DNA from: Winogradskyella pelagia
GTDB lineage: Bacteria > Bacteroidota > Bacteroidia > Flavobacteriales > Flavobacteriaceae
NCBI RefSeq assembly: GCF_017581965.1
Contig: NZ_JAGEVF010000008.1
Location: 62,001-126,000 of the forward strand
Reading direction: 5' to 3'
DNA length: 64,000 nucleotides
Shown: positions 9,636 to 15,503 of the stretch, piece after piece
How positions within the stretch are numbered: the first letter of the stretch is position 1
How the letters are laid out: every line of letters starts with the position of its first letter
The notes under the pieces: generated by a model
What the model was told of the DNA's origin: nothing
The model's input: only the letters and a program-made list of their open reading frames with translations
Database searches by the model: none
Program-made: the position numbers and the translations under genes

Positions 9636-10319
9636 TTAATCAATTGCCTTAGGCAAATGAATCCCGTTTCTTAAAATTAAAACCCCCATAATTAGAGCCC
9701 AAACCACTTTAATATGGAATAATGGTTTATAAATTTCAAAATTATCTGGGATGGCTAAAATAATGCCCATTGCGGCCAAACCAAAAAGCAAGGTAAAAAC
9801 CCCTAATAATTTATTGACCATATGCCATTTTAAAAATGCGAATCCCAAAAGTACAAATCCTACTCCCGAAAAAATTCTTCCAAACCTAATAAAGCAAGTT
9901 ACATATTGATTAGTGTATAATATATCTCGCATAAAAGTGTCAATTTCTGCAGCAGATTTTCCAGCTGTTTCACCAACACCCCAAGCGCCAAAATTATAAA
10001 AATATGCATTCGCTATGGCCAAGGTAAAGGTTCCTATTATTATCATGCCTGCACCAGGCAAAATCAGTACCCTAAAAGGTCGTCTTGCTGCTACAGATAC
10101 AAGTGCAAATAAAGCAATACCAAGAGTTACCCAACCAAATATATGAATACGATACATCCATATCCAGGTCCAAACATTTTCGCCTATTGCTTCAAAATCT
10201 GAAGCTTTTATGTATTCTCCTATATGATGCGGAGACAATGCCCAACCCAACCACAATAAAAGTGAAGCCAATAGAAAAGACCACCCAACTACCTTAGTTT
10301 CAAAATCTTTATGAATCAT
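9636..10319 (-). CDS. Six-TM integral membrane protein of unknown function
   Basis: A 227-residue protein I do not recognise. Six hydrophobic helices are visible (about 11-28, 57-78, 84-106, 147-164, 169-191 and 203-217). Notable polar residues are a W-x-W-M-Y-R-I-H-I segment (52-60), His31-His32 after TM1 and a C-F-I-R-F-G-R stretch before TM4. There is no signal peptide or cofactor motif. It is divergent from the membrane protein at 10444 across a 124-base gap that holds a perfect ATGTAAC-N4-GTTACAT palindrome, so it may belong to the same regulon. A role as a small-molecule or respiratory membrane protein is possible but unsupported. Confidence 0.6.
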   Translation of the reverse strand: MIHKDFETKVVGWSFLLASLLLWLGWALSPHHIGEYIKASDFEAIGENVWTWIWMYRIHIFGWVTLGIALFALVSVAARRPFRVLILPGAGMIIIGTFTLAIANAYFYNFGAWGVGETAGKSAAEIDTFMRDILYTNQYVTCFIRFGRIFSGVGFVLLGFAFLKWHMVNKLLGVFTLLFGLAAMGIILAIPDNFEIYKPLFHIKVVWALIMGVLILRNGIHLPKAID

Positions 10320-10372
10320 AACCTTATTAATTTTCGATAATTCTTCAAGCTATTGCTTTAATTTATCTGTTT

Positions 10373-10390
10373 ATGTAACTTTTGTTACAT
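10373..10390. promoter_or_regulatory. Palindromic operator, site 1 (CRP/FNR-like)
   Basis: ATGTAACTTTTGTTACAT is a perfect inverted repeat with 7-bp arms and a 4-base spacer. It has the geometry of CRP/FNR-superfamily sites. The centre is 62.5 bases before the TTG start at 10444. A -7-like TATTTTTA lies at 10412-10419, which would put the site near -42, the usual activator position. The same palindrome recurs at 11947-11966. Confidence 0.7.
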
Positions 10391-10443
10391 TACAGGAAAA
10401 GAATGATCAATTATTTTTAGAGATATTTAAGAATTAGACGGGA

Positions 10444-11460
10444 TTGCAGTACAATAATAAATTAATAATCAATAGACTGACAGCATTGTGGGCTCTCAAC
10501 GAATGTGGCATAGGCGGTTTTATGCACGCCTTTAGCTCACCATTTACGGGTATTATTGTTGGCGGTGTTTCCATATTGCTCATAACCCTTATTGCTTCTT
10601 ACGCTAAAAATTTACGCTCAACACTAATTAAAGCCTTAATTATTGTATTACTGGTGAAGCTCAGTGTAAGCCCTCATTCACCTCTACCTGCATATTTAGC
10701 CGTTTCTTTTCAAGGAATTTTAGGAATAATCTTATTTAGTTTATTACCTGTGAACAGGGTAACAATAGTTTTACTAGGAGTTCTTACCTATTTAGAATCT
10801 GCTCTTCAAAAAGTTATTGTTTTAACCATAATATATGGTCAATCCCTTTGGAACGCTATTGATAGCTACGGCGCATGGATTAGCACTAAATTCAATTCCT
10901 TGGCTCTTAATATATCTTCCAAACATTTAATATTGGTTTATTTAATATTTTATGGCGTCTCGGGTTTTCTTGCGGGGTTGCTCATTCTAAGAGTTTATAA
11001 GGCTGTCCACTCTATAAAACTGCCCAATAATTTTAACCCACCAGTTTTAGATATAGCAACGGACCCTAAGACAAAACATCCTAAGAAGAAAAGGAAGTTA
11101 ATCTTGTTTTGGTGTATTACTGTAGTAGTAATTTTACTTCCTTTAATATTCTTTAATAGTAATAATAATAATAATGGATGGAAAACAGGTTTATATGTTG
11201 TCGCCAGAAGTTTAATAATTATAGGCACCTGGTATATTATACTTGGCCCATTGACTCTTAAATTACTTAATAAATTTTTACAGAAAAGACGCTCACAATA
11301 CCAGACAGAATTGCAACAGACACTTTTGTTATTACCACATTTAAAATCAATAGTAAATTATGTTTGGAAAGAGAGCAAATCCTTAAAAGGCCTAAATCGA
11401 GTCCAGTATTTTATTTCAAGAAGTATTGTATACAGCTTTCACTTTAAAACTTCAAAATAA
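10444..11460 (+). CDS. Polytopic membrane protein paired with a THEP1-like NTPase
   Basis: A 338-residue inner-membrane protein of unknown function. Seven hydrophobic segments can be drawn (about 34-54, 60-75, 83-101, 105-123, 162-184, 219-238 and 252-272), with a basic cytoplasmic loop (K-H-P-K-K-K-R-K, about 211-218) and a charged C-terminal tail. Apparently conserved parts are W-A-L-N-E-C-G-I-G-G-F-M-H-A-F at the N-terminus and S-P-H-S-P-L-P-A-Y-L-A-V (76-87). The TTG start is preferred because the next ATG (residue 27) would remove this N-terminal block. The stop TAA directly abuts the TTG of the NTPase gene, so the two probably work together. Transport of an anion or cofactor precursor is a guess from context. 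An in-frame run of five AAT codons encodes an Asn tract near residue 240. Confidence 0.65.
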   Translation: MQYNNKLIINRLTALWALNECGIGGFMHAFSSPFTGIIVGGVSILLITLIASYAKNLRSTLIKALIIVLLVKLSVSPHSPLPAYLAVSFQGILGIILFSLLPVNRVTIVLLGVLTYLESALQKVIVLTIIYGQSLWNAIDSYGAWISTKFNSLALNISSKHLILVYLIFYGVSGFLAGLLILRVYKAVHSIKLPNNFNPPVLDIATDPKTKHPKKKRKLILFWCITVVVILLPLIFFNSNNNNNGWKTGLYVVARSLIIIGTWYIILGPLTLKLLNKFLQKRRSQYQTELQQTLLLLPHLKSIVNYVWKESKSLKGLNRVQYFISRSIVYSFHFKTSK

Positions 11461-11946
11461 TTGATACACTTATTAGTAGGGCAAATAGAAACGGGAAAGA
11501 GTACTGCGCTCATAAATTGGATTAAGGGAAAAACAAATGTTTACGGCATATTGAGCCCTGTTGATGATAACAAGAAGAGGGGGTTTTTTAACATTGAAAC
11601 CAAAGAAAAGTTTGCCATGCAAGCAGACTCGGAAGAAGAAAACGTTATTTCTATTGGCCGGTACCATTTCTACAAATCAGCTTTTAAAATGGCCAATTCA
11701 ATTATAATCCAAAATGTCAAAACCAAAAGTGCAGGATACATTATTATAGATGAATTAGGAAAATTAGAATTAAAATCTCAAGGACTTCATGCATCAGCAC
11801 TGACGGCAATTGAAAAAACTAGAAATAATAAAAAACTGCACACTATTCTTGTTGTTCGAGACTATTTATTAGAAAATATAAAAAACCACTACAAGATTAC
11901 AAACGGTAACGTATTAACCATATCCAGTCTGTCTTCCTTAGGTTAA
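11461..11946 (+). CDS. THEP1-like P-loop nucleoside triphosphatase
   Basis: A 161-residue cytoplasmic NTPase. The P-loop GQIETGKST lies at residues 7-15 and the Walker B motif I-I-I-D-E-L-G-K-L-E-L at about 98-108; the DE(I/L)GK(M/L)EL form is the signature of the THEP1/DUF265 family of NTPases. The TTG start follows the upstream stop with no spacer, and an ATG start would lie beyond the P-loop, so TTG is needed. In vitro, THEP1 proteins hydrolyse NTPs slowly and their biological role is unknown. Fusion-like coupling with the membrane protein suggests it energises or regulates that protein. It is followed by the second palindrome and the sulfite oxidase gene. Confidence 0.75.
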   Translation: MIHLLVGQIETGKSTALINWIKGKTNVYGILSPVDDNKKRGFFNIETKEKFAMQADSEEENVISIGRYHFYKSAFKMANSIIIQNVKTKSAGYIIIDELGKLELKSQGLHASALTAIEKTRNNKKLHTILVVRDYLLENIKNHYKITNGNVLTISSLSSLG

Positions 11947-11966
11947 TATGTAACATTAGTTACATA
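11947..11966. promoter_or_regulatory. Palindromic operator, site 2 (CRP/FNR-like)
   Basis: TATGTAACATTAGTTACATA is a perfect inverted repeat with 8-bp arms and a 4-base spacer, starting directly after the NTPase stop codon and centred 71.5 bases before the TTG of the sulfite oxidase gene. It shares ATGTAAC-N4-GTTACAT with the site at 10373-10390. An internal promoter for the sulfite genes controlled by the same factor is the simplest reading. Confidence 0.75.
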
Positions 11967-12027
11967 AGAATTGAGTAAAAATGATTAATTTATAAAGTTA
12001 ATGTGTTAGTGTTAAATTTATAGTATT

Positions 12028-13248
12028 TTGAAGAGAAGAGATTTTGTTAAGAAAGCGACATTAAGTTCTTTTGCTGCTTTAATTGGCGCCGAAATTGTTT
12101 TTGGCTCTAAAATGTATGACGGATACACGCCAATTGCTTTGCAAGATCCGGATCCATTCAAACTTTTTAACAAACATAAAGACATGGTTGTTCTTAATGA
12201 TAAGCCATGGAATATCGAAGCTCAAGCACATTTATTGGACGACAAAATTACCCCTAATTCCAGTATGTTCGTTAGAAATAATGGACTAATTCCAGAAAAT
12301 ATTGATATTAAGAGCTGGACACTTACTATTGATGGAGAGTCTGTAAAAAAAACAAAAACCTATACTTTACAGGAACTTAAAGCAAACTTTAAACAATATA
12401 CTTATCAATTAACCATAGAGTGCGGTGGTAATGGCAGAGCTGAATTTGACCCACCCGCTAAAGGTAACCAATGGACGGTTGGTGCTGTTCATTGTGCCTC
12501 ATGGACTGGTGTTAGACTAAGAGACATCCTTGAAGATACAGGAATTAAAAATGATGCGGTTTACATTGGCTTTCATGCTGCCGACCAACACCTTAGCAGA
12601 GACCCTAAAAAGGAGGCAATTTCAAGAGGTTGTCCCGTGGCTAAAGCTGTTCAAGACGAAACCTTATTAGCATTTCAAATGAATGGTAAAGATATTCCTC
12701 TTGTGCATGGTTATCCTTTAAGGTTAGTTGCTGGCGGATGGCCGGCATCCGTATCTGGAAAGTGGGTAAATCGGATTAGTATTCGCAATAAAATACATGA
12801 TGGTGCAAAAATGAATGGTACTGCCTACAGAGTCCCTTGTGAACCCGTTGAGCCAGGTGCAAAAGTAAAGGATGAAGATATGTGCATCATAGAATCTATG
12901 CCTGTAAAATCATTGATTACTTATCCAAAATCTGGTGCTATGATTAACAAAGGAAAAAAACTGAATATTAGAGGTCATGCTTGGGCCGGAGAATTAGAAG
13001 TAATAAAAGTAGAATACTCAATAGACTTTGGTGCAACATGGCAAGGCTGCACTCTTGAATCACCAGTTAATAGATTAGCTTGGCAACATTTTTCAGCATC
13101 AGTTGATTTTCCAAAAAAAGGATATTATGAAGTTTGGGCAAAGGCCACCGACTCTCTCGGCGTGTCACAACCTATGATTTTACCTGGGTGGAATCCAAAA
13201 GGCTATTTAAACAACGCCTGTCATAGAATTGCTGTTAAGGTTAAATAA
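12028..13248 (+). CDS. Sulfite oxidase-family molybdopterin oxidoreductase (SorA/SoxC-like), Tat-exported
   Basis: A 406-residue periplasmic molybdoenzyme. It begins with a twin-arginine signal (K-R-R-D-F-V-K-K followed by a hydrophobic stretch), which fixes the TTG start at 12028. The molybdopterin domain carries the Mo-ligating Cys132 in T-I-E-C-G-G-N-G-R, and the conserved block V-H-G-Y-P-L-R-L-V-x-x-G-W-P (227-239). The C-terminal part (about 285-406) is the Ig-like Mo-co dimerisation domain. Enzymes of this family oxidise sulfite to sulfate and pass electrons to cytochrome c. The stop overlaps the ATG of a cytochrome c gene by one base (TAATG), as in SorAB systems. Sulfite is the likely but unproven substrate. 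Confidence 0.88.
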   Translation: MKRRDFVKKATLSSFAALIGAEIVFGSKMYDGYTPIALQDPDPFKLFNKHKDMVVLNDKPWNIEAQAHLLDDKITPNSSMFVRNNGLIPENIDIKSWTLTIDGESVKKTKTYTLQELKANFKQYTYQLTIECGGNGRAEFDPPAKGNQWTVGAVHCASWTGVRLRDILEDTGIKNDAVYIGFHAADQHLSRDPKKEAISRGCPVAKAVQDETLLAFQMNGKDIPLVHGYPLRLVAGGWPASVSGKWVNRISIRNKIHDGAKMNGTAYRVPCEPVEPGAKVKDEDMCIIESMPVKSLITYPKSGAMINKGKKLNIRGHAWAGELEVIKVEYSIDFGATWQGCTLESPVNRLAWQHFSASVDFPKKGYYEVWAKATDSLGVSQPMILPGWNPKGYLNNACHRIAVKVK

Positions 13249-13721
13249 TGAAAAAAGACAATACATTCAGTGCACAAATTAAGACCATCTACAAGATGTT
13301 AATGGCATTATTCTCATTGTTTGTTGTTGCCGGTGGTGGACTAGTTTATTATGCAAATAATCCAACAGCCTTCAATTTTAATTCTGAAAATAAAACTGTT
13401 TCTACTGTCCCTTTAGAGGTTGATGAAGATTTAATCGTTGATGGCATTCATATTAGAACCGGCTTAGTTGATGACCAAGGTTTAATGGTTGTTGTTAATA
13501 ATTGTACAAATTGCCACTCAGCCAAATTAGTAACACAAAACAGAATGAATGCTGAGCGCTGGAATTCCACAATAAAATGGATGCAAGAGACTCAGAACTT
13601 GTGGGACTTAGGAAAAAACCAAGAAATTATAGTCAATTATTTAGTAAAAAATTATCCGCCTAAAGCGAAAGGTAGGCGGATGGCATTGTCTGGCATAGAG
13701 TGGTATGAGTTGGAAGATTAA
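13248..13721 (+). CDS. Membrane-anchored mono-haem cytochrome c (SorB-like)
   Basis: A 157-residue protein with one N-terminal membrane segment (about 16-35) and a periplasmic domain holding a single haem c motif C-T-N-C-H (Cys86, Cys89, His90). Met100 or Met112 could be the distal ligand. Translational overlap with the sulfite oxidase gene indicates that it is the electron acceptor of that enzyme, delivering electrons to the terminal oxidase. The last 17 bases overlap the start of the rhodanese gene. The SorB assignment rests on gene order plus the haem motif, not on close recognition of the sequence. Confidence 0.8.
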   Translation: MKKDNTFSAQIKTIYKMLMALFSLFVVAGGGLVYYANNPTAFNFNSENKTVSTVPLEVDEDLIVDGIHIRTGLVDDQGLMVVVNNCTNCHSAKLVTQNRMNAERWNSTIKWMQETQNLWDLGKNQEIIVNYLVKNYPPKAKGRRMALSGIEWYELED

Positions 13722-14616
13722 AATAGCCGTATTGACCATTTTGTTTTGGTCTTGTAAAGAACATCGTGCATCGGATACATTAGCATCTTATGGTGATTAT
13801 GTCATAGAAGCAAATGAACTAATGGCTTTAATAGAGCATCCCAATATTAAAATATTAGACTTTAGAAAAAATAACCTTTATAATAAAGGACATATAGCTA
13901 AGGCAATTAATATTTCGAGAGATGATATTGAAGACGGATCGTATCCCTATTCTGGCGTAATGGCTAGAAAAAGTCAAATTGAAGAGTTGTTTAGTAAACT
14001 AGGTATAAACTCCGATGATACTGTTATAGTTTATGATGATAGCGGAATGTGTGAAGCCTCAAGATTATGGTGGATATTGCAGAATTATAATTTTAAAAAT
14101 ATAAAACTACTTAATGGTGGATTTTTATCGTGGGTAGATATAAATGGAGAAACCTCCACTGAAAATCCAGTTATAAAACCTACAAATTTTAAATTTCCAG
14201 CCAATTCATTAATGAATTATTATATTTCAAAGGAAGAACTGTTAGAAGTCCAAAAGAGTAATGTGATAATAATAGATACAAGAACGCTAGATGAGTACTC
14301 AGGCAAACATCAAAAACATGGCGCATCAAAAGCTGGGAGGATTCCAAATAGTATTCACGTGGATTGGGCTGATAATATTTATTTTAACGGTGATAAAAGA
14401 CTGAAACCAATTGAAGAAATTAGAAAAAATTACGATAAATTAGATTTAAAAAATACAGACTTTATAATCTTATATTGCCACAGTGGTGTTCGCTCAGCAC
14501 ATACTACTTTTGTATTGACACAATTATTAGGATTTAAAAATGTAAAAAATTATGATGGATCTTGGGTAGAGTGGAGTTATCATAATGATTTACCTGTTGA
14601 TATTGACATGCTTTAA
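13705..14616 (+). CDS. Tandem rhodanese sulfurtransferase, lipoprotein
   Basis: A 303-residue two-domain rhodanese (thiosulfate/3-mercaptopyruvate sulfurtransferase type). The short N-terminus has a lipobox-like L-F-W-S-C with Cys17, so it is probably a periplasmic lipoprotein beside the sulfite oxidase. The C-terminal domain has the active-site loop C-H-S-G-V-R-S (Cys258). The N-terminal domain has V-Y-D-D-S-G at the equivalent place, with no catalytic Cys, as is usual for the inactive domain in this family. Transfer of sulfane sulfur to sulfite or cyanide, or release of sulfite from thiosulfate, would fit the neighbours. The start overlaps the cytochrome gene by 17 bases. Confidence 0.85.
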   Translation: MSWKIKIAVLTILFWSCKEHRASDTLASYGDYVIEANELMALIEHPNIKILDFRKNNLYNKGHIAKAINISRDDIEDGSYPYSGVMARKSQIEELFSKLGINSDDTVIVYDDSGMCEASRLWWILQNYNFKNIKLLNGGFLSWVDINGETSTENPVIKPTNFKFPANSLMNYYISKEELLEVQKSNVIIIDTRTLDEYSGKHQKHGASKAGRIPNSIHVDWADNIYFNGDKRLKPIEEIRKNYDKLDLKNTDFIILYCHSGVRSAHTTFVLTQLLGFKNVKNYDGSWVEWSYHNDLPVDIDML

Positions 14617-14627
14617 AAAAAAGAGAA

Positions 14628-15503
14628 ATGGAAAATTATTTAGACGCATTTGTAAAAGCCTTTGAAGGCACGCTATCTTGGACCTGGAAATCAATTCTTT
14701 TTGAAGTTCCATGGTACACAAATTATTTTTGGGGACTTATTGTTATTTCTTTAGTCGTATGGCTCTTAGAAATCTTTTTTCCATGGCGAAAAGATCAGGC
14801 TATATTTAGAAAAGATTTCTGGCTAGACGCATTTTATATGTTCTTTAATTTTTTCATTTTCTCCATTGTTATCAGTGGCGTATATCAAATTATAGGTCTT
14901 CTGCTTTCAGAAATAAATATTACTGCTAAAAGTTTAGCTATAATTGATATGTCTAACTGGGCACCAGGCATACAATTATTCGTGTTTTTTATTATCCTAG
15001 ACTTTGTTCAGTGGTTTACACATGTACTTCTTCACAGGTACCGCATACTTTGGAATTTCCATAAAGTCCATCATAGTGTGAAAGAAATGGGCTTTGCGGC
15101 ACATTTAAGGTACCATTGGATGGAAAATATTTTATACAAGCCCTTAAAAACTTTTGGTGTAATGCTCATTGGTGGATTTGAACCAGAGCAAGCATTTATT
15201 GTACACTTTATCGCAATTGCAATCGGGCATTTAAACCACGCTAACATTAAAATTACTTGGGGACCACTTAAGTACATTCTAAATAACCCTGTTATGCATT
15301 TGTACCACCATGCATATCATTTACCTAAGGGTAAACATGGCGTCAATTACGGTATTAGTTTAAGTCTATGGGATTATATATTTAAGACTAATTATATCCC
15401 TGAAGATAGCGGGACAATTGAAATTGGTTTTAAAGGTGACGATAAATTTCCTCAAGACTTCATAGGTCAAAACACCTATGGTTTCGGAAAAAGTAAAAAC
15501 TAA
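14628..15503 (+). CDS. Sterol desaturase / fatty acid hydroxylase family membrane protein
   Basis: A 291-residue integral membrane di-iron protein with at least four hydrophobic segments. The family histidine clusters are complete: H-V-L-L-H (132-136), F-H-K-V-H-H (144-149), H-L-N-H (201-204) and H-L-Y-H-H-A-Y-H (224-231). Such enzymes hydroxylate or desaturate lipids using O2. It lies 11 bases after the rhodanese gene, so it is probably in the same transcript, although a link between lipid hydroxylation and sulfite oxidation is not obvious. It is convergent with the amidinotransferase gene, 14 bases away. The lipid substrate is unknown. Confidence 0.85.
   Translation: MENYLDAFVKAFEGTLSWTWKSILFEVPWYTNYFWGLIVISLVVWLLEIFFPWRKDQAIFRKDFWLDAFYMFFNFFIFSIVISGVYQIIGLLLSEINITAKSLAIIDMSNWAPGIQLFVFFIILDFVQWFTHVLLHRYRILWNFHKVHHSVKEMGFAAHLRYHWMENILYKPLKTFGVMLIGGFEPEQAFIVHFIAIAIGHLNHANIKITWGPLKYILNNPVMHLYHHAYHLPKGKHGVNYGISLSLWDYIFKTNYIPEDSGTIEIGFKGDDKFPQDFIGQNTYGFGKSKN

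Follow-up and report, generated by a model that had tools for sequence, protein, structure and literature searches.

Palindromic operators of a putative sulfur-oxidation regulon flank a candidate molybdenum-cofactor gene pair in Winogradskyella pelagia

Introduction

What do two perfect palindromes with a common core control, when one precedes the gene of an uncharacterized membrane protein and the other that of a sulfite dehydrogenase? This arrangement occurs in a stretch of 64,000 nucleotides of the Winogradskyella pelagia genome (Flavobacteriaceae; contig NZ_JAGEVF010000008.1, positions 62,001 to 126,000), hereafter the window. Between the palindromes lie memb, the gene of the membrane protein, and a P-loop NTPase gene; the sulfite dehydrogenase gene, sorA, follows. 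A preliminary description of this DNA had read the palindromes as CRP/FNR-type sites that bracket the memb/NTPase pair and join it with the sulfite genes in one regulon. Here, we analyzed the palindromes in the window, in the whole genome and in related genomes, and examined the genes and candidate regulators associated with them. The best explanation of the whole, to which we assign a probability of about 0.74, is that the palindromes are operators of a CRP/FNR activator, that they belong to a sulfur regulon, and that a molybdenum-cofactor gene pair has been recruited into it.

Results

Two inverted repeats with a common core, as previously described, were found in the window, and both fit ATGTAAC-N4-GTTACAT exactly. 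Site 1 (ATGTAACTTTTGTTACAT, 10373..10390, no strand assigned) lies between the divergent 6-TM gene and memb and is common to their two promoters. Site 2 (TATGTAACATTAGTTACATA, 11947..11966, no strand assigned) lies upstream of sorA; its core match, ATGTAACATTAGTTACAT, occupies 11948-11965 and is extended by one base pair on each side. No other exact match was present in the window. When up to three mismatches were allowed, the window held 10 matches against a shuffle mean of 5.0, and the weak matches are thus mostly due to chance. In the whole genome (3,363,831 bases in 58 contigs), the 16-base core TGTAACN4GTTACA occurred five times, and the reversed pattern, which served as a mirror control, once. 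With up to two mismatches, 222 core matches were counted, fewer than for the mirror control (257), so near-exact sites alone are informative. Sites with two or more mismatches were rejected as a class on these counts; a few two-mismatch sites were retained, solely where a promoter box and the gene behind it both fit.

The divergent 6-TM gene (9636..10319, minus strand) encodes an uncharacterized membrane protein with six hydrophobic segments, as judged from its open reading frame (ORF) and hydropathy. On the other side of site 1, memb (10444..11460, plus strand, TTG start assumed) encodes an uncharacterized membrane protein of 338 amino acids, for which 80 homologous loci were kept. Neither the 6-TM protein nor memb matched a Pfam family over the cut-off, and a relaxed search up to E 5 gave the 6-TM protein no hit. 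Directly after the memb stop codon follows the P-loop NTPase gene (11461..11946, plus strand, TTG start assumed), whose product is of the NTPase_1/THEP1 kind (PF03266, 46.2 bits against a cut-off of 23.9) with the Walker A motif GQIETGKS. Its stop codon occupies 11944-11946, and site 2 starts immediately behind it. The next gene, sorA (12028..13248, plus strand), encodes a sulfite dehydrogenase, a molybdenum enzyme, with Oxidored_molyb (PF00174) and Mo-co_dimer (PF03404) domains both over the cut-off. At 240.2 bits, the protein is below the SorA equivalog cut-off of 600 and is hence called SorA-like.

The exact sites outside the window were C33:2272, C44:87996 and C44:89970. C33:2272 precedes a type III sulfide:quinone reductase (SQR)-like gene (663 bits; cut-off 525, from a selenoprotein-subtype model), followed by genes for a DsrC/TusE protein (over the cut-off) and a DsrE2-like protein (below the cut-off). 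Behind C44:87996 lies another SQR-like gene, which is more distant (228 bits, under the same cut-off of 525). C44:89970 precedes the gene of a metallo-beta-lactamase/rhodanese protein, and we take such proteins to be of the persulfide dioxygenase kind, a name assumed rather than obtained by a scan. An adjoining TauE gene (over the Pfam cut-off) has a two-mismatch site of its own. Four of the five exact sites thus directly precede sulfur-oxidation genes, namely sorA, two SQR-like genes and one persulfide-dioxygenase-like gene. Site 1, which directly targets the 6-TM gene and memb/NTPase, is the exception, with no known sulfur enzyme among these targets. These counts, with a single match of the mirror pattern, agree with the earlier view that the palindromes are unlikely to be chance matches, and the motif is not scattered over the genome without a pattern of gene function.

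The comparison with relatives covered 149 family genomes, one of which was the own genome. Exact sites were present in at least one copy in 82 of them, 166 in total against 60 mirror-pattern sites. Among the sites listed, 75 were compiled, and the surroundings of 73 were inspected. Sixty-six were intergenic (27/30 and 39/43 in two batches), and 43 (16/30 and 27/43) lay within 300 bp upstream of a homologue from the sulfur set, which consisted of 18 families chosen from the own-genome loci and included the accessory members DUF2892, HMA, fatty-acid hydroxylase and 6-TM. For the mirror control, the corresponding counts were 1/30 and 0/30. sorA was present in 41 of the 149 genomes. In 19 of the 30 best sorA loci, the 300 bp upstream contained a site with at most two mismatches (9 exact), which in 18 of the 19 began 64-83 bp before the start codon; G031 has an exact site at -273 and a one-mismatch site closer to sorA. 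At the level of sequence, these results confirm the twin palindromes as a real motif that is conserved in related marine bacteria. The proposal of one regulon containing memb/NTPase and the sulfite genes was upheld by the sites at sulfur genes in this genome and in the relatives, but its designation as a sulfite-oxidation regulon was too narrow, for sulfide and persulfide genes are included as well.

Some of the sites without a sulfur-set gene lie before a FadL-like porin gene or molybdopterin oxidoreductase genes (by eye), and others have no visible link. The gene of a conserved outer-membrane protein resembling FadL-type porins (by eye) is found directly behind the operator in five loci, of which L302, L307 and L333 share the operator with an SQR-like gene, and L320 and L325 have the porin-like gene alone. 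This protein is possibly an entry route for a sulfur compound. In L050 and L308, exact sites separate a gene resembling Tat-type molybdopterin oxidoreductases from one with heme-binding CxxCH motifs (by eye); in some relatives, the regulon perhaps includes this oxidoreductase as its second molybdenum enzyme.

Promoters were compared on 99 sides of exact sites lying between genes; these came from the window and its own genome, from the relatives and from the loci L160-L162, with duplicates removed. On 48 of the 99 sides, TAnnTT started at a distance of exactly 29 bp from the centre of the palindrome, and every other offset between 8 and 83 had it on 0-6 sides. The commonest bases at positions 29-36 were T and A, two open positions, three T, and G or A. 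This box is presumably the -7 element of Bacteroidetes, which has the consensus TAnnTTTG. When the box at +29 is read as the -7 element, the palindrome centre falls near -41, an activator position; symmetric sites with this activator-like spacing fit the CRP/FNR-type geometry seen earlier. In the window, -7-like boxes were located for the 6-TM gene (TAGCTTGA, 10345..10352, minus strand, 29 bp from the site 1 centre), for memb (TTATTTTTA, 10411..10419, plus strand, TA at +30 from the site 1 centre) and for sorA (TAATTTAT, 11986..11993, plus strand, 29 bp from the site 2 centre). The sorA TAnnTT at +29 recurs in L160, L161 and L162, and the memb box has T-rich counterparts there.

The strict pattern TAnnTTTG was found behind only 1 of 22 sorA sites and was given up; the relaxed TAnnTT register came later from all promoter sides. 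The genome also contains 17 one-mismatch sites. Among the 12 inspected, eight were inside an ORF and four were intergenic, and of these four, the site that precedes a peroxiredoxin-like gene (named by eye) is alone in having a TAnnTT box at +29. Three sites with one or two mismatches (L024:4328, 4521 and 5407; C22, about 419-420 kb) lie before TolC-like and peroxiredoxin-like genes (by eye), and all three have a TAnnTT box at +29. Exact sites in L304 and L328 are likewise followed by TolC-like genes (by eye).

The memb/NTPase pair lies between two sites in the window and in L160, L161 and L162, so that this twin layout is found in four genomes. L160 is from a public Winogradskyella bin, and L162 from the marine isolate Aureitalea sp. 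L0-47. Seven of the eight sites concerned match exactly; the other deviates at a single position. L141 (G199) was taken as apparently the genome of L160, on account of contig position and identical sites, and was counted once. In alignments of the twin-layout loci, the arms of site 1 are conserved in L160-L162 (one mismatch in L162) and the flanks have diverged, and site 2 forms a conserved island with a varying spacer in the four genomes. In G148 and G109, sorA and the 6-TM gene stand back to back without memb, with exact sites 184 and 195 bp apart. Since these memb-less genomes hold both sites at such a distance, an insertion of the pair is the simplest reading. From these comparisons, memb/NTPase was probably inserted between two older operators, the direction of the change being inferred. 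A single clade, with support of 100/99, unites the four memb proteins linked to sorA. Of the earlier statement that the palindromes bracket the pair, the flanking layout holds; the palindromes are really two separate operators, and the pair occupies the DNA in between. Homologues of the 6-TM gene recur opposite sorA with a common intergenic operator (L047, L054, L306, L309 and L334), and in L072 one stands alone behind an operator.

Six cNMP-binding proteins are encoded in the genome. One of them, P0001, whose gene lies outside the window (C33:330591-331223, corresponding to L039:8592-9224), scored over the cut-offs for PF00027 cNMP_binding (41.2 bits, cut-off 27.5), PF13545 (46.2, cut-off 27) and PF00325 (30.8, cut-off 21). 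The gene stands in a sulfur cluster, directly upstream of a pair that we take to be YeeE/YedE-like and of a second lactamase-rhodanese gene. Both units of this cluster have a two-mismatch site in front of them, with boxes at +29 and +28. P0001-type genes were detected in 137 of the 149 genomes (E 1e-20). Of the 75 listed sites, 22 lay within 10 kb of such a gene (about 0.5 expected) and 26 within 25 kb; for the CRP gene of the L033 type, the count was 0/75.

The recognition helix S-R-V-V-[IV]-S-R was present in all 33 aligned P0001-type sequences and aligns with T-R-V-T-V-T-R of NtcA. The residues equivalent to positions 180 and 181 are Arg and Val, the latter (Val184) in 33/33. Among the other paralogs, inspected by eye, Glu occupies position 181 in two, Pro occupies position 180 in two, and no Crp-type helix is visible in one. 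C78 and C84 were conserved in 33/33 sequences and C85 in 32/33, forming a C-x5-CC triad; P0001 has no other cysteines. The solved Crp/Fnr protein 3dv8 retains C-x5-C at the same positions. Judging from the helix and the gene neighborhoods, P0001 is likely the protein that binds the palindromes, and it corresponds to the CRP/FNR paralog with a matching recognition helix anticipated in the preliminary description. The conserved cysteines suggest that it probably senses reactive sulfur species.

memb was found in 7 of the 149 family genomes and in 26 of 68 genus genomes. The 80 pair loci were the best 80 of 95 from a scan of named genomes and, by title, were all from Bacteroidota except one Ignavibacteriae bin. 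A homologue of XdhC, XdhB, MobA, FdhD, IorB or SorA was located within 7 kb in 71 of the 80 loci, and L208 adds a xanthine-dehydrogenase subunit (by eye). In 17/80 loci, the NTPase and MobA queries matched one and the same ORF; the NTPase-MobA fusion in L109 was verified by profiles. The 77 pair loci without sorA contained no exact palindrome. The operator is therefore tied to a sulfur setting; the pair goes with molybdenum enzymes. The two meet at sorA, the gene of a molybdenum enzyme. This distribution suggests that the sulfur regulon has probably recruited memb/NTPase as a molybdenum-cofactor module. memb is split in two pieces in L234 (Winogradskyella) and G173:C7 (a genus member), which may be decaying or wrongly assembled.

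ModB was not detected over the cut-off in any of the 68 genus genomes, including this one, and four of the 68 gave weak hits below it. MoaA was found in 12 of the 68 and not in this genome at E 1e-60, a strict threshold below which a divergent MoaA would escape the count. memb occurred in 1 of the 12 MoaA genomes versus 25 of the 56 genomes without a MoaA hit (Fisher p 0.017, with related genomes not being independent); that is, 25/26 memb genomes of the genus were without MoaA at this threshold, and 11/12 MoaA genomes were without memb. The MoaA, MoaCB (MoaC), MoaE and Mog queries gave weak hits alone in about 1.5 Mb (<45%, overlaps counted) of the genome, and MoaA, MoaCB and MoaE were not found at E 1e-8 in the fetched loci other than the MoaA loci L359-L370. 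If confirmed, the absence of MoaA would mean that the cofactor is needed from outside, which would make the pair a candidate importer.

Downstream of sorA, the window contains genes for a SorB-like c-type cytochrome with one CxxCH (13248..13721, plus strand; 29.1 bits, where the SorB cut-off is 93), a two-domain rhodanese (13705..14616, plus strand; PF00581 in two stretches) and a membrane protein of the fatty-acid-hydroxylase family (14628..15503, plus strand, as for the sorA genes; PF04116). Homologues of the last stand directly behind the operator in some relatives (L049, L073 and L337).

Discussion

We propose that P0001 would bind TGTAACN4GTTACA centred near -41 and would recruit RNA polymerase to the TAnnTTTG-type -7 box 29 bp on. 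The signal would be reactive sulfur species, read by C78, C84 and C85. Sulfide:quinone reductases, persulfide-dioxygenase/rhodanese proteins, TauE for sulfite export and SorAB would be switched on, and sulfide would be oxidized by way of sulfite to sulfate. At the locus itself, site 1 would drive the 6-TM gene and memb/NTPase, and site 2 would drive sorAB. The pair, placed between two older operators, would serve SorA by cofactor supply, handling or uptake.

Several observations weigh against this explanation. The -7 box of memb departs by one base from the register seen most often. Of the 73 sites inspected in relatives, 30 have no sulfur-set gene directly downstream, seven of these being in ORFs, and the set itself was picked from own-genome loci with accessory families counted. 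Eight of the 30 sorA loci have no site at three or fewer mismatches, and three have one solely at three mismatches. Most of these 11 loci are in genomes with a P0001 homologue; G046 and G128, sorA genomes without this homologue, are both among the 11. The sites in P0001's own cluster carry two mismatches, and no exact site was found within 1.5 kb of its 30 closest homologues, four of whose loci have one at one mismatch. The 12 genomes without a P0001 homologue hold one site in total, but they are mostly small, which lowers counts by itself. As for the pair, none of the molybdenum-related homologues was found in 20 arbitrary 15-kb stretches, but this random control was drawn from six genomes of one genus, whereas the 80 loci span a far wider range.

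Other regulators were also considered. An HcpR-type nitrogen-oxide sensor, with the sulfur genes in a wider nitrosative/redox stress regulon, seems improbable to us. Its case is the published HcpR2 motif GTAACnnnnGTTAC, which has the same core as the operators (PMC1274295); HcpR2 also has the CRP/FNR architecture. In that paper, however, positions 180/181 are linked to the half-site, and HcpR2 mostly has Pro at 181, with few exceptions (Ser and Gln) that have other motifs, whereas P0001 has Val (V184). HcpR2 controls hcp, unlike the regulon here with its targets in sulfide and sulfite oxidation; none of the five exact targets is hcp-like by eye, although no search aimed at hcp was made. The chance that the palindromes are bound by a different CRP/FNR paralog, for example one of the L033 type, is likewise small. 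Two of 30 L033-type loci (L282 and L287) do carry an exact palindrome just upstream of the L033-type gene, which also counts against P0001, but this gene may be a target instead. Moreover, none of the 75 listed sites, to which the L282 and L287 sites do not belong, is within 25 kb of a listed L033-type gene, against 26 for the P0001 type, and the L033-type helix has Glu at the 181 equivalent (by eye), a residue linked to other half-sites by the rule in PMC1274295. The palindromes L282:2244 and L287:2240 suggest a link of the sulfur regulon to a second regulator or its divergent neighbor. It is highly improbable that the palindromes are hairpins (terminators or RNA elements) or chance matches. 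Site 2 does begin immediately after the NTPase stop codon, and the weak window matches are near chance level, but the arms are conserved while the flanks drift, the box is fixed at +29, four of the five genomic sites are directly at sulfur genes, and no T run follows site 2.

For the pair alone, a molybdate importer of a new kind, rather than a cofactor handler or importer, is conceivable, though doubtful. The absence of ModB hits over the cut-off throughout the genus, this genome included, and the position of the pair beside molybdenum enzymes would fit such a role. Against it, the pair accompanies the late cofactor genes XdhC, MobA and FdhD, and in the 80 loci, moaA/C/E/mog queries gave only weak hits of the radical-SAM type. 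With MoaA not found at E 1e-60 in 25 of the 26 memb genomes, molybdate import would also be useless without cofactor synthesis. A more specific form of the cofactor role, in which memb/NTPase takes up or salvages molybdopterin or the finished molybdenum cofactor, appears rather unlikely. Bacteroidota that do not make the cofactor would then import it and complete it by means of MobA, XdhC or FdhD, and in this genome the importer would have come under the sulfur-responsive operator of the enzyme.

P0001 differs from known regulators in several ways. FNR proper has an N-terminal Fe-S cysteine cluster; P0001 lacks it and has cysteines at 78, 84 and 85 only. FisR, SqrR/BigR and CstR are sulfur-responsive regulators of sqr/pdo operons from non-CRP/FNR families. 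They resemble the system described here in controlling sulfide/persulfide oxidation genes, which here would be under a CRP/FNR protein. NtcA is a cyanobacterial CRP-family activator that binds GTAN8TAC near -41.5 (PMC3898017). This consensus is contained exactly in TGTAACN4GTTACA. P0001 shares with NtcA the recognition-helix residues, and the palindromes have the GTA/TAC contact spacing of NtcA sites and a place near -41. In contrast, P0001 reaches 58 bits against the NtcA equivalog cut-off of 244.95, and its targets and presumably its signal are different. On the side of the pair, MobA/MobB fusions (cofactor guanylyltransferase and P-loop adaptor; NF011059) are similar in that a P-loop NTPase is fused to MobA, as in L109, but here the NTPase belongs to PF03266 and has an unnamed membrane protein as its partner.

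Flavobacteria are reported to be among the marine thiosulfate oxidizers (PMC12345210), and the words "regulator" and "Crp" do not occur in the available part of that paper. Within the open-licence literature, leaving subscription papers and regulon databases outside our scope, we found neither a regulator of sulfur oxidation in Flavobacteria nor a sulfur regulon under a C-x5-CC CRP/FNR protein with a recruited molybdenum module. The motif core and the protein family were already known; the sulfur-oxidation regulon and the recruited molybdenum module are the new part. The analysis provides a named candidate protein, an exact operator with its promoter register, and a list of targets that could be tested by one knock-out. 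It also links the unstudied memb/NTPase pair to molybdenum enzymes in bacteria where ModB and MoaA were not found at the thresholds used, and so raises the question of how such bacteria fill their molybdenum enzymes.

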